Below are positions 43,901 through 49,877 of a DNA stretch of 64,000 nt, in pieces (positions within the stretch are counted from its first letter, which is position 1; each line of letters begins with the position of its first letter). The DNA comes from Linnemannia elongata (Eukaryota > Mortierellomycota > Mortierellomycetes > Mortierellales > Mortierellaceae), in NCBI GenBank assembly GCA_036320915.1, contig JAXBDG010000004.1, forward strand, positions 620,001-684,000, in the 5' to 3' direction. Under the pieces are notes generated by a model, which worked only from the letters and a program-made list of their open reading frames with translations, ran no database searches and was not told where the DNA came from. A program made the position numbers and the translations under genes.

Positions 43901-44795
43901 CGCGCATGATCTCTTTGACGGGAGCGTCGGGCATTTCCATGTAGACGCTTCCAACAGTGACCATGAGGTAGAGACGGGGAACGATATTTCCTGCATATTG
44001 AACTAACTCGTAGAGATCGGCCAAGTGGTGTCTTCCGCTCTGATGGGCCTCTTTGAGGTAAGTGGTGACGTGGCGAAGGGCGTCAAAGATGGCCATATCT
44101 GCAAAAGGAATGCCAAGGGAGAAAGGAAATATATTAGAAAGTGATACGGCCAGTTGCTTGGCGCCAAAAAACATAACGGATCATATATTTTTTCTGGTGA
44201 GCGTTCCGGGGCTACTGGTTTCTGGATACGAATTGACGCAACAGACAGTCTGATAGATCATAATAGTCACTTACAGAGTTCATAGTAGTTCTTGGGTGTC
44301 AAGTTGGAGGTTCGCAGCTCCGAGAGCATTGTTGAACAGTGCTTCAAGCCATCCATAAGCTTGTTGTTGTCCTAGAACCATTGTGAGAAAAAAAAAGGCG
44401 GAGGGTGTCAGCAGGTGCATTAGGTTGGGGGTCAGACGGGAGAGTCCCCGTCAAGCGTGAAAAAGGGGGTTGTAGAAAATAAAAGGTGAATTCGGAGGAA
44501 GAGAGAAGGGATTGAGGGAGAAAGGTGAGGTTGGTCATGCTTGTTTGCATGTACAACGTGGCCACCAGCTAGACCATTCTGTATTTTTTTTTTTTTTTTT
44601 TGCTCCTCTTTCGGTTGTATGAGGAGCGTTGGAGAATGGTGTGAAAAAGAGTGATATGAGGTGAGAAGAGTGGAGAAGAGAAAACAAGTTCCTTACGAGA
44701 CAGCGCTTCATTTGGAAGGATTGGACCTTGACAACGGTCAGGGCATCCTCCAGGAGCTTTGCTTGGTCCTCTGCGGATGGTGTCGGTGTCGCCAT
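40972..44795 (-). CDS. VPS35: Retromer subunit VPS35, eight exons
   Basis: Exons are 44795-44697, 44371-44275, 44098-43792, 43670-43463, 43315-43232, 43134-42691, 42574-41723 and 41601-40972, for about 906 aa. Key family features are QSFQMKRCL in exon 1, the conserved PRLYLM motif ([16 protein letters not shown]) that contacts VPS26, [29 protein letters not shown], and the C-terminal alpha-solenoid blocks ([41 protein letters not shown]). VPS35 is the scaffold of retromer, which recycles cargo receptors from endosomes. It is longer than human VPS35 (796 aa), mostly because exon 6 holds a 90-residue acidic Glu-rich insertion. The gene starts about 190 bp from the end of the nuclease fusion gene. 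Confidence 0.93.
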
Positions 44796-44988
44796 TGACG
44801 CTGTGTATGTATGGTGAGAGGGGAGTAGTTGTTGAAAGGGAGTTGGAAAAGAGTAAAAAAAAAGTACTTCAGATGACGGCTGCAGGACAATTGGCGCCAA
44901 AATGACGTCACCGGAGTGGCGTCATCGTGGAACTAATCCCCACAATCCAGCACTAATGCGTGGTTTCATACACGCGTAAAAATCTAGT

Positions 44989-47900
44989 CTAAGCTCGGGT
45001 CGATTTGCCCCTCCTGCCCTTTTCCTGACTGGAAACTGTGGAAGCCCTCTTACGACGTGACGGGGCGCGACTGGAAGACCTGCTGCTGCTTGCTGCCGTG
45101 GTGCTGCTTGTCGCCGTACTGCTTGCCGCCGTGGTACTGCTTGCTGCCATGTTGCTTGAACTTGTACTGGAACTCGCCATCCATGGGTATGATCCATCTG
45201 CTGCAAGCGGCTGCAGGTGCTTGGGCCTCTCGAAGGTCTTGAGCCGGTGTAGAACAATCTCGCACATGTTCTGAGCAGCCATCGTGTCACGATGAAAGTA
45301 CCGCTTGCACGAGTAGCAATAAAAACTCCGAAGGGTCACTTGCGCAATGAACTCGGTACATCGGGGGCACTTCTTCGATGTGTAGTATTCATTAATACCG
45401 ACTACGACATAGCCTAGGGAGCGCACCTAAACATTGAGAGTCAAAGAGTACATTAGTTTTCAACACTTGAATTATATCAGCGATGTTATCAACGACTTTG
45501 ATGACAAAGGCTTACCGTTTGGACAAAGTACGAGAGAAATGTGGAGTGCAGTGTCGAAAGCTTGGAGTTGCTGGAAAACTGGCCCAAGCCAACTCCAAAC
45601 AGAATGGGATCCTTATCCTCATTGTCTTCGACTCGTCGACCAAGACTTCCTCCAACCACATTCAGCAACCTCTCGGCAAGGGCTTGATATTCTGCTTGCT
45701 TGGCCCTCTCCAAGTCCCACGCATGCTTCTTGTAACGATTGTCATCCTCAGCATAGAACTTCTTCAGACGTGTCTCAACCAGCTCCAACTCCTCCACATA
45801 GTTCATGACGCTTCCTGATTGTCCTCTCAGGGGTGGCAAACGGGACTCAAGTTCCGCAACAGACTCCTCTTCACCTTCAGGAGTCACCCCCTTCTCGCTC
45901 TCGAGCCACCTACGATGTCGAAATACTGGCTGGTAGATAGCCTTCTGCTTTACAGCCAGATTGTAGAAGGGAGGCTGGGATGAGTCGCCACGCGGATCCG
46001 TTACTGGGTCATGAACGGGAGTCGAGACCAGATCTGGCACTGGAAATGGGTTGGTCATCAGTTCATCTGCTGCCTCCTGACAAGACAAAACGATACCCTC
46101 CATGCACAAGCCCCCAGTTGCTTTCTCCTTGCCCTTGCACTCACCGTCCAGATCCTTAGGCAAATACGCAAAGCCACCGACCACGCAAACTTGACCGCCA
46201 TCCAAGGTAACGATCTTCATGTCATCTACGTTCTTTCCTGGCCACAACTTGGCGATGTCCTCCTTGGACTGAATGACGTTGCGGATTTCAGAGAGGTAAT
46301 AGTCGGACCCGGCAACCGTGGTAGTCAGCCTTGGAGGGAGATCATCCTCGGGTAATCTCCTGAACCGCGCATCTTGACGCTCTCGAAGCTTAAAAGCAGT
46401 GAGCTGGAGTCTAAATCCATCCGTTCGTAGTGATCCATGGGGTATGTAGCCCTTTTGGTGATAGTCCTTGGGCTTCGTACGCTCAACAAATTGAAGGTGA
46501 TCCTGAATTTCACTCAACGACCGAAGATTGATTGCGGCGCGGTGTCCAGTTTTGCGCCTCTGTCGGTTCGACAGGCCGGTGGGATCGATGTCGCAGACGA
46601 AATTCTTGATTATAAATCCCGGCTCCTTCCCACCGATCCAGGTTTCCAGGTCATTTGTTGAAGTAACAGTGGCGGGGTTGTCCTGGTCCAATGAAGCCAA
46701 CTCCACCAGCCTCTGCCGCAACGAGTCTCGCTTCCAAAAGAAGCTAGCCAGTTCTCTCTCTGAAAAAGTAACAAATCCCTGCTGCGACGAGGTGAGGGGT
46801 GTGATCCGCCACTTGTTTGGATGCATGTCGTTGAGAGCAATGAAATTTTCCGCTGCTGATATGTTTTCCTGAATGCTGAAGTCGATATATGCCTCAACTT
46901 GCCCCTTGTCCTTCAGAGTGCACACCTACAATAAAACAGATAAACATCAGTTATATGCTTGCTTGTAATGAGGACCTCTATTAGAGTAATCGTCAATGGG
47001 AATCATATCATTACCTTATCGTACAACAAATGGGTTCCATTACGATAATGCTTCTTGAGTTCAACAGAAAGCTGACTAGCCGTGGACCGCACCAGCATGC
47101 TCGGCGTGAACGACATACTGACATTGATCTCGCCTCGATTCCGAGAGGCATCGAATAGTTCAAGGTCGGCCAAGATCCCGACAAACTTGTTGACTGCTTT
47201 ACCCATAGCAGAGTTTTTGTTGGGAAGATTCTCCGAGTATAGGTACGTCAAAAAGGTCTCAAGGAACTTCACACATTTGTCGGTCTCCTCATCAAGATCC
47301 GATTGGCCAGCATCCTTCTGACCGCCGTCGAGTCCATTATCTTTGTCAACTTTGGGCTTGATCCTCTCGCAGAGAAAATCCAGAACCACTCGCTCATCAT
47401 CCGATACCGCCTCGCGTCTCGCCTTTAACCGATCAGACTCCAACAAAGCCTCGCCATTTTTCTTTCTCCTAGCCTCGACCACCGCATCCTCAATACGAGT
47501 CCGCAACGTCTCCAGAAAGCGACCAATAAGGCGTTGGGCCTTCCTCTTGATGTCCACTGCCAGCTGGGAACCCTCCTTCAGACATTTCGCCACCTCCCCC
47601 TGCAGCTCCGGCGAAAGCGACGACACTCGCCTAGTGTTAGCCTCCAACGTTCCGACCTCAAGAGAAACTGTGGGATGATGCCAGCCGAGTGACTTAGAGA
47701 GCCTCTGCTTGTCAGTCATCTTGGATGCCCTCAGGCCAGCAGCAGATGGTGCCTTGTCCGACTTCTGCTTGTCTTTGCTGTCCGTGGTGTCAGTGGTGGG
47801 TGAGTCACTTATGGAATGGGACATCACCTTGGGAGCCTTCCACGCGAGCTGCTTGGCTCTTGCAGGAGGCTCATGGCTCACGCTCCCCTGGTATCGCTTG

Positions 47901-49318
47901 AAAGAAAACCGTTGGCTGTGTCGGGGTATTCGTGTCCTAAGCAGTGCTGGATGGCCAAGGTTTTCCTGACCCAAAGGAGTAAAAGTAGGCTCCTGGGGGA
48001 AGCCGGGCTGATGCTCTGAAGGGGTTCCAGAGGCCTTGGAGATCTGTCTTGGCGATTCCACAGTACGGTAGCGATTCCAGGATCTTGGCACTCGCAGACG
48101 TATAATCTCATCACTGGTTTCTCTATATTATTAATCAAGTGTAATGAGAAATAATTCACATGATTGCTTCCTCAAAATAAGCTTTGCAAATTATCAGCGA
48201 AAATACCTCAGATGCAGCTCCTGTATACGGATGCGTTTGAGCTCGTTATGCCGGGTACATAGATCCTTGAAGTGAAGATGCAGTTGCTCATACAGGGTCT
48301 GAGCATCTGATGTGGAATCGACTCTGTTAAGTTTTGTTTGACGCTTGTCGATAAACACGCGAATAGAGTCTTCAAACTCCTTCTTTTCCTTGTTTTTTGA
48401 GATGACTCGAGTGTCCGCCAGATAGCTGTGCACCACCTCCTTAGGGTCTATATAATAAAAAAGAAAGACATTAAGCGCAGTTAGTTCTCAATGTAAAGAT
48501 AGCAAGAACATTCAGACCTGGAAATAGAAACATATTCGATCATTACCCATGCTGTTGATGGACTTGATAATAGAGAAGTTCGTGGCTGGACCAAGAGACC
48601 AAATATTCTTGTTGTAATCGTTTTTGGACACTACTGCAAGTGCGGTGAGCTGAGCGCGGGTGATGCCGAGGGCCAAGAGGAGGTCAGGGATGGAGTAAAC
48701 CAGGATCATGTCGTTTGAAACGGGGCGCCACAAAGTCACGATAGATCCATAGGCGAGCATATCTGAATCACGGGAGATGATAATGTCCTCTGGGTTTGCG
48801 TCGATAGCGATTGCCAAGTCAGCCTCTGTTGCCACAACCTGGACTGTCCAGCCTCGTTCTGTCATATAATCCGCAAAGCTCCTCCGGCTCTCCATCGACC
48901 AGTAGAAGGAGGAGGCTAAACCTGAGCGGACGTCGGCAAAATGGCGTTTTCTCAGATGTTGATTGTTGTCGATGCGTGATTCGAGAGTGGTTAGGCTTGT
49001 TGCTGTTTGCTCCAGAGCTTTCTCTCGCCGTTTTTGGCGCTCGGCTGCGGTCTCACTCTTCTCCATGGCCGGGTCCCCATCAATGTAAAGAGTCATATTC
49101 AACGCCGTTCCGAACCGACTGACTTCCTTCTCCAGACTGCGGTGGGCGGCGTCTTGCGACATGTTGGAGTAAGAGTTCCTGATGACGTTATAGCACGACC
49201 CAAGAACATCCAGTCGCCGTCGACCGTTGGTGATGATGCTCGCGAGTATTGATCGGTAAAGTTGGACAGGTGTGTAGCCCTTGCGTCGAATGAAAGGGTA
49301 CCAGTCGAATAGTCCCAT
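44989..49318 (-). CDS. XPG/FEN1-like nuclease fused to a TnpB/Fanzor-like RuvC nuclease, five exons
   Basis: Exons are 49318-48547, 48447-48207, 48122-47015, 46925-45516 and 45426-44989, for about 1322 aa with every phase consistent. Residues 1-257 look like an XPG/FEN1-type PIN nuclease: MGLFDWYPFI start, LYIDGDPAMEK (D80, D82), ATEADLAIAID (E165, D167), ISRDSDMLAYGS (D184, D186) and a helix-hairpin-like SKNDYNKNIWSLGPATNFSI. Residues 260-700 are charged and Pro/Ser-rich with helical parts. The C-terminal half resembles TnpB/Fanzor: RuvC-I IVTLDGGQVCVVGG (D949), RuvC-II region FGVGLGQF (about 1150-1157), NEYYTSKKCPRC (E1190, C1197, C1200), then CYSC (C1214, C1217) and YFHRDTMAAQN (D1224). 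A Ser/Arg-rich tail follows. TnpB/Fanzor proteins are RNA-guided DNA nucleases of transposons. Whether this one has a guide RNA or both activities is unknown. Confidence 0.8.
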
Positions 49319-49877
49319 TATGAAGGATACTTCATGTGATGGAAGTAATGGATGTGTCGTAAAAGGACTTGGGGAAGTAGAAAGAAAAAGTAGGTCGAAT
49401 AAGAGCTCAAAAGCAGTGAATAAAGATATTGGGTCAAATGATTGTGCCGATATTCAATGTAATTTAGTGTCAATTGACAGTAACTGCCGATCCATATTAG
49501 GAAATATTTCATGCATAGCTTCAGCCAATAAGAGAATTATGGCGTCCATTGTCCTGCAGCCCAGATGACCCGTGACGTTTATGTTCCACGTGACAACTAC
49601 CCTTTGGCATCTTCTCGTACAAGGACACCCCTACTTGAGCAAGTATACGAAGGAAACAGCCCAGCATGTAAAGTCGATCGCTTTGAGTTTCTTCGCCAAT
49701 TCTCCTTTCACGCTTAAGCCTTGCCAATAAGTCAAGGGAATACACCAATGCTGCAGCTCGCCTCTTCGAGACTCGATAGACAATCATTATGTCCTGCAAA
49801 TTAAACATTATTTATTCGACCAGTCCGTATATCGTTTATGGTATTTGGTATCCCAGAGGAAACGGTATCCTGAGTTC
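49319..49877. other. Intergenic with a small basic open frame
   Basis: A minus-strand frame at 49808-49521 (95 aa, MFNLQDIMIVYRVSKRRAAA at the start) is Arg/Lys-rich with normal-looking codons, but I recognise no family. It may be a small gene or decayed sequence upstream of the nuclease fusion gene. It is not called as a gene. Confidence 0.3.

Follow-up and report, generated by a model that had tools for sequence, protein, structure and literature searches.

On the minus strand of a 64,000-nucleotide stretch of the Linnemannia elongata genome (the window; GenBank assembly GCA_036320915.1, contig JAXBDG010000004.1, positions 620,001 to 684,000), a single gene encodes a protein that combines an XPG/FEN1-type nuclease domain in its N-terminal half with a Fanzor1-type nuclease in its C-terminal half. 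Five exons (window 49318-44989) join in phase to give 1322 residues and a stop codon, and all four introns are GT-AG and 84–99 bp long, in agreement with a first-pass annotation of this DNA that had described five phase-consistent exons and about 1322 residues. The coordinates given by that annotation (44989-49318) hold for the coding part, and the whole unit is a DNA transposon of 4,684 bp (44878-49561, minus strand), delimited by the edges of identity among copies, terminal inverted repeats (TIRs) and an 8-bp target site duplication (TSD).

Exon 1 (48547-49318, minus strand, as are all the exons) encodes the XPG/FEN1-type domain, residues 1–257. Exon 2 (48207-48447) follows the XPG core, is conserved among relatives and is predicted to be helical in the structural model of P0001, the relative that was modelled (81% identity with the window protein; predicted local distance difference test score, pLDDT, 67 on average). 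A linker predicted at low confidence in that model occupies the first part of exon 3 (47015-48122), in which the Fanzor1 part begins at about residue 485. The Fanzor1 REC/WED region, with its TDG motif (residue 875) and the RuvC-I aspartate D949, is encoded by exon 4 (45516-46925), and exon 5 (44989-45426) contributes the alternative glutamate E1190, the C4 zinc ribbon, the RuvC-III aspartate D1224 and a basic, Ser-rich tail. Splice sites are identical in seven of seven near-identical copies, the window copy counted. The residues flanking junctions 1, 3 and 4 are kept in most of 11 aligned annotated homologues, and junction 2 lies in a variable linker.

The N-terminal half resembles XPG/FEN1 nucleases

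Sequence profiles placed exon 1 in the XPG/FEN1 family at scores below the curated thresholds: Pfam XPG_I gave 17.8 bits on the window protein (cut-off 24.9), and NCBIfam fen_arch matched exon 1 with an E value of 1.7e-8 and 34 bits, far under its equivalog cut-off. Comparison of exon 1 with the sequences in the PDB produced a match to Rad2 (E 1.8e-5), and the N-terminus (residues 1–257) was modelled as a FEN1/EXO1/XPG nuclease. All seven catalytic carboxylates (D37, D80, E165, D167, D184, D186 and D234) are there, as assigned by reading the alignments against the FEN1 numbering. E165, D167 and D186 are unchanged in 25 of 25 relatives, and D80 in all 24 with a residue at that position; three of 25 have G or N in place of D184, and two of 17 have P or S in place of D37. 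The putative helix-3-turn-helix and cation site, the helix-hairpin-like segment of the first-pass annotation, is only partly supported: its sequence aligns to Rad2, but residues 233–240 were modelled at pLDDT below 50. The XPG-type acidic motifs that the annotation read in exon 1 are borne out by alignments and by a structure model.

The C-terminal half resembles Fanzor1

Residues 1168–1231 matched the TnpB/Fanzor zinc ribbon family PF07282 with 41.9 bits (cut-off 26.3), and NCBIfam guided_TnpB matched exon 5 (E 1.2e-7, below its curated cut-off). In the model of P0001, the nearest structures to the C-terminal ~770 residues were those of Fanzor1. This part contains a D-E-D triad with the glutamate at the alternative position and a TDG motif, and it conforms to the Fanzor1 pattern D-X(125,275)-[TS][TS]-X-X-C4 zinc finger-X(5,50)-RD, as D949, 243 residues, T1193 S1194, the C4 ribbon and R1223 D1224. 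The alternative RuvC-II glutamate is E1190 (NEYYTSKKC); among the 23 relatives with a residue there, 20 have E, two K and one G. The canonical RuvC-II region reads FGVGLG in the window protein and IGVGLG in most relatives. The TDG motif of the WED domain (LRTDGF, residues 873–878) is found as TDG in 24 of 31 aligned relatives. The RuvC-I, zinc ribbon and RuvC-III motifs announced for exons 4 and 5 correspond to D949, the C4 ribbon and D1224.

Some results weigh against the Fanzor1 assignment. The model is of moderate quality (pLDDT 67, template modelling scores of 0.35–0.49 by target length), and a sequence profile search against the PDB matched no Fanzor1 chain, the similarity being found by structure alone. 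Exon 4 by itself matched no PDB sequence up to an E value of 1. Sequence searching reached no Fanzor1 beyond Mortierellomycota among the 67 proteins found when the best 7,989 candidates were scored. The structure models and alignments give each half a nuclease fold together with its acidic residues; the loss of either from one of the halves was among the outcomes that the first-pass annotation had named as fatal to its proposal.

The two halves belong to one protein

A whole-protein search, in which the best 7,994 candidates by shared words were scored, returned 40 relatives, 16 of which cover both halves in a single alignment running from residue 80 or earlier to residue 1170 or later. All 16 come from Mortierellomycota (genera Linnemannia, Podila, Mortierella, Entomortierella, Dissophora, Gryganskiella, Benniella and Haplosporangium), and three of these proteins (P0005, P0009 and P0022) hold both Pfam domains in the database's precomputed list. 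Every organism-named entry among the 67 proteins mentioned above is also from this phylum. In the L. elongata genome, the XPG_I profile matched two diverged copies (L005 and L006), in each case a short way upstream of the match to exon 4.

Both halves look to be under constraint, judging from ratios of nonsynonymous to synonymous change (dN/dS). Against L013, a copy 96.6% identical to that of the window and with one stop, dN/dS was about 0.15 in the XPG half and about 0.33 in the Fanzor half; against L010-L012 it was about 0.2–0.3 in each half. Comparison with three more distant copies (L014, L016 and L018, 50–67% identical) gave dN values of 0.24–0.36 in both halves, with dS saturated or not computable, and L008 differs from the window copy by zero synonymous changes.

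Not every comparison supports a single constrained protein. The middle region (residues 340–700) gave a dN/dS of about 0.5 with L013 and a dS near zero with L010-L012, and a value of 0.91 was obtained for the XPG portion of L009, a frameshifted copy. The halves are annotated as separate neighbouring gene models, on one contig each, at at least three related loci (KI688_004861/004862, BG004_006508/006509 and EDD21DRAFT_79587/79589); one of these gene models breaks within the linker, which is probably disordered, given its low-confidence prediction. These split annotations and the poorly predicted linker would also be expected if XPG and Fanzor genes merely lay side by side and were united only in gene models, as would the 78 proteins found with the XPG half alone, in a search that admitted short proteins only and returned many marked partial. 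Such an arrangement is highly improbable in view of the GT-AG introns preserved in all seven copies, the residues conserved across junctions 1, 3 and 4, and the homologues aligned over both halves. Since 16 of the 40 relatives span both halves, the fusion is no gene-model accident, and on the sequence evidence a single XPG/FEN1-Fanzor protein is real. The double-nuclease fusion that the first-pass annotation proposed is accordingly upheld by relatives with both halves, by kept introns and by two nuclease folds. That annotation knew of no published description of such a fusion, and no description of an XPG-Fanzor fusion, nor of a Fanzor in Mortierella, was found in a literature search whose scope left most subscription papers outside.

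The XPG domain might still be a structural or DNA-binding addition, without catalysis, to an ordinary Fanzor1 transposon. Extra domains do occur in Fanzors, such as the FRI domain of PpFz (PMC11423790), the XPG_I score of the window copy is under the Pfam cut-off, and D184 or D37 has been lost in some relatives. We consider this unlikely, however, as against it stand the four acids without a replacement among the relatives (E165, D167, D186 and D80), the low dN/dS that the XPG half gave with L013 and its low dN (dS saturated) with the three diverged copies.

Separately, the database entry for the relative P0047, from Actinomortierella ambigua, bears the name 'Elongation of fatty acids protein 2', probably through misannotation or a chimeric gene model.

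The gene lies in a young transposon

Comparison of the ends identified a 5' TIR, GGCTGCAGGACAATGGACGCC (49541-49561, minus strand), and a 3' TIR, GGCTGCAGGACAATTGGCGCC read inward (44878-44898, plus strand), the inverted repeats of the window element being GGCTGCAGGACAATKGRCGCC. They are flanked by a perfect 8-bp TSD, CAGATGAC on the plus strand, at 49562-49569 beyond the 5' end and at 44870-44877 beyond the 3' end, as established by comparing flanks; identity between copies ends at 44872 to 44877. In both element types that were fully read, A and B, no gene other than the fusion was recognised. Exon 4 matched 56 pieces in the L. elongata genome, including seven full-length copies at 96–100% identity (that of the window among them) and diverged families. 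A second family, 5,697 bp long (C31:23847-29543), has the same architecture and a perfect duplication of its own, and its protein is 38% identical to the window protein in the XPG half and 27.5% in the Fanzor half.

Among 14 copies with both ends, eight have perfect 8-bp TSDs, of different sequences, and two have duplications matching at 7 of 8 positions; the remaining four have no clear TSD, which counts against the model proposed below. This tally covers copies in which both ends were recognised, and so leaves out those without a found 3' end and L009, L013, L015 and L017, which have a 3' end and no recognised 5' end. TIRs and a TSD of fixed length are the marks of a cut-and-paste transposon, and the window element, a young one, has both.

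Three of the one-ended copies (L009, L013 and L015) have an intact 3' end; the coding frame of L009 contains gaps and stops, and that of L013 one stop. By eye, L056/L080 (C31:23839-29551) and L077 (C4:913480) are apparently inserted in the 3' ends of other copies, and the element may target its relatives. At the 5' end of the element (window 49412-49561), the first ~36 bp hardly vary in an alignment of 20 copies. Families that share just 27–38% identity in their proteins are 84% identical over 148 bp of this end, which represents an unexplained constraint or exchange. The window element itself lies ~82 bp upstream of the apparent start codon (chosen by eye) of a Vps35 gene (window 44793-44878), recognised by PF03635 in its later open reading frames (ORFs); after the insertion, the ACGTCAC motif described below is 4.7 kb distant from that start.

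A motif at a fixed distance from the insertion

Across 20 aligned 5' flanks, ACGTCAC occupies positions -17 to -11, ending two bases before the duplication; in the window it is found at 49572-49578 (minus strand), and the motif counts at insertions make it a candidate target-adjacent motif (TAM). It is matched at six or more of its seven positions in 12 of 20 insertions, compared with a mean of 0.014 per offset over 293 other offsets, and ACGTCA is exact in nine. These counts used 20 of 30 5'-end matches, including L056 and L077, which by eye sit in another copy's 3' end; ten were left out (L055, L066, L067, L071-L076 and L079) because the TIR end was missing or degenerate or the row was a duplicate. 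Over the first 40 offsets, the 3' flanks (n=14) showed no comparable motif. As evidence for a TAM, the motif is weakened by its imperfection, with 8 of 20 insertions matching at fewer than six positions, and by the two unconstrained bases between it and the duplication.

In published Fanzors the guide corresponds to the DNA flanking the element on its 3' side, and the target has the TAM on its 5' side (PMC10432273), with CATA, TTAA and ATN as TAMs (PMC11423790). An empty site here would read ACGTCAC-NN followed by the duplication and flank, which would place the motif immediately 5' of the DNA matched by the guide; in the occupied allele 4.7 kb separate motif and target. This geometry of motif, duplication and flank fits Fanzor homing to empty sites with ACGTCAC as the TAM.

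A conserved hairpin at the 3' end

The 3' end of the element contains a conserved hairpin (44880-44945, minus strand; folding and covariation), a 66-bp extended structure that stops 2 bp short of the 3' edge and is a candidate for the end of an omega RNA scaffold. In an alignment of eight chosen distinct 3' ends, from which near-identical copies were omitted, 89.4% of the paired cells could pair, compared with 33–51% for slid versions, and the covariation score was above that of 500 of 500 shuffles. Cells read on the sense strand included 38 G-U and two A-C, and a sense-strand RNA is therefore favoured.

Several observations argue against an RNA reading. Only four pairs changed on both sides, a number reached by 91 of 500 shuffles, the number of further pair types was unremarkable (reached by 456 of 500), and related sequences can beat shuffles without any structure. 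Counting only states that differ from the window copy, the excess becomes a weak 7 G-U versus 2 A-C. Measured against its shuffles, the antisense strand gave the stronger fold (z -3.66, versus -1.97 for 111 nt of the sense strand), and a 150-nt sense stretch gave a z of -0.99. As the structure was drawn from the fold of the window copy, the evidence is suggestive only, and it suggests that the hairpin is a candidate guide-RNA scaffold. An Rfam scan of 44700-49800 gave no match up to an E value of 1, and neither strand of the conserved 5' 150 bp gave a sign of folding (z 0.92 and -0.04).

The hairpin could instead be a palindrome at the DNA level, made of protein-binding half sites, with the motif being read by a transposase or host bZIP protein and not by the Fanzor. 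Its arms hold TGACG/CGTCA, resembling the target motif, the better folding of the antisense strand points the same way, and insertion sites are not necessarily TAMs. We regard this as rather unlikely, since the sense-strand mismatches are mostly G-U (38 cells, with two A-C), and since the register between motif and insertion is fixed, which speaks against loose tethering.

Mobilisation probably occurs in trans

The whole protein matched no transposase family in Pfam, and the six antisense ORFs of the window element (104–125 amino acids) matched no Pfam family above cut-off. Searches of the genome for hAT, MULE, DDE_Tnp_IS1595 and KDZ found no transposase tied to ends of this kind. DDE_Tnp_IS1595 gave no match, and neither did KDZ, for which the control genomes gave none either, so that the absence of KDZ is not established. 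With respect to 49 TIR-like sites, 2 of 44 hAT matches and 0 of 24 MULE matches lay within 10 kb, and MULE was rejected as a partner on that ground. A hAT gene on contig C9, 5 kb from a 5' end, was discarded as the autonomous partner: it has its own ~95% inverted subterminal repeats of 165 bp and is for that reason read as a nested insertion. The second hAT match (C27:509886) was discounted as well, lying 3.4 kb outside a TIR-like site with two mismatches, on its outer side.

Weaker TIR-like sites were read in five regions (L084-L088), the remaining 3-mismatch sites on C3, C17, C28, C29 and C31 falling outside this set. Ten ORFs from four of these regions had no Pfam match to a transposase; the matches among them were to a retroelement integrase zinc domain (one) and glyoxalase (two copies). 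L084 consists, by eye, of repeated host-like ORFs, and L087 contains a fragment resembling the Fanzor C-terminus. As observations in their own right, the C9 region (201500-207700; L089 and L090) comprises a hAT element that has inserted into a related element, within the 5' part of the latter, and its hAT match score recurs at eight places in the genome, C9 counted; the genome also holds 11 MULE matches of equal score (79.7 bits), which suggests a young MULE family.

With the fusion as the only recognised gene of element types A and B, antisense ORFs without a Pfam family, a sharp target motif, strongly conserved ends and both nearby hAT matches discounted, the protein could be the transposase itself: its Fanzor1 part would recognise ends and target, its XPG and RuvC sites would cut, and the element would be self-sufficient. 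We find this quite unlikely, however. DDE enzymes such as hAT characteristically produce duplications of 8 bp, and no TnpB or Fanzor is known to move an element by itself. In PMC3627910 TnpB is ruled out as the transposase of IS200/605 and IS607, and Fanzor elements with TIRs and TSDs, ends like those of MuDR elements and no transposase are described in related fungi. Given these transposase-less Fanzor1 elements, mobilisation in trans is the safer reading. Still more doubtful is a version in which one polypeptide performs both transposition and RNA-guided homing, with the insertion motif, the TAM and the 3' hairpin forming a single recognition code, ACGTCA.

A model of RNA-guided homing with end trimming

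The reading that we favour, with a probability of about 0.55, is homing or retention of the element guided by RNA through the Fanzor part, with trimming of ends by the XPG part. A sense transcript ending in the 3' hairpin would serve as omega RNA, and its guide would come from the host DNA that adjoins the 3' end (the duplication and flank, from 44877 downwards). With ACGTCAC-NN directly 5' of the guide match acting as TAM, the ribonucleoprotein would be able to cut empty alleles only; the occupied allele would be spared, because the element separates motif and target, so that the same rule would protect the element and mark the empty allele for cutting. The Fanzor RuvC site would make the break, and we infer that the tethered XPG domain would process it by trimming 5' ends or flaps. 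Trimming would favour repair copied from the sister or homologue bearing the element, by which the element would home or be retained. The transposase making the 8-bp duplication would be encoded outside the element and probably act in trans.

The interpretation offered by the first-pass annotation thus survives in part. Two nuclease folds with catalytic residues do lie in a mobile element, whereas the role envisaged, processing during transposition, likely gives way to one in homing or retention of the element guided by RNA, with processing of the ends, owing to the TIR transposon, its 8-bp duplications and near-identical copies, the target motif and the conserved 3' hairpin.

Fanzors are eukaryotic RNA-guided nucleases, and the fusion bears on the benefit that they bring to their transposons and on the way in which their breaks are directed into repair. 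If active, it would be a natural cut-and-trim enzyme, linking the finding of a DNA site with the trimming of the cut. It is spread over many genera of one fungal phylum and present in near-identical copies within one genome, copies that together with their clean duplications make L. elongata suited to testing the role of Fanzors in transposition. The model predicts that ACGTCAC-NN serves as TAM, that the guide derives from the 3' flank and that mutating the XPG acids abolishes homing.

Comparison with known systems

With XPG/FEN1/EXO1 5' nucleases, the protein shares the fold over residues 1–257, the seven acids and the N-terminal Met-Gly typical of the XPG/FEN1 family; here, however, the domain is part of a transposon protein and is joined to a nuclease of the RNA-guided type. 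With Fanzor1 proteins (SpuFz1, PpFz1 and GtFz1), it shares the fold, the D-E-D triad with alternative glutamate, the C4 zinc ribbon and TDG, as well as the transposon context, a conserved 3' end and a motif upstream of the 5' end. It differs from them by an XPG/FEN1 nuclease at the N-terminus and a long linker, in a protein of 1322 residues, and by a motif that sits 2 bp outside an 8-bp duplication; Fanzor1 proteins measure up to ~800 residues (PMC10711439).

The spare-occupied, cut-empty logic proposed here from geometry would be that of the TnpB proteins of IS200/IS605 and IS607, which spare the occupied site and cut the empty one. Unlike those elements, the present one has no TnpA, bears TIRs and duplications, and is eukaryotic and intron-bearing. 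Closer in structure are ROr-4, PBl-3 and MCi-4 of Mucoromycota, which likewise have TIRs and TSDs and encode Fanzor1 with no transposase (PMC3627910); their duplications are of 9 bp and their ends MuDR-like, whereas the element described here has 8-bp duplications, GG(C/G)TGCAGG ends, the ACGTCAC motif and the XPG fusion.

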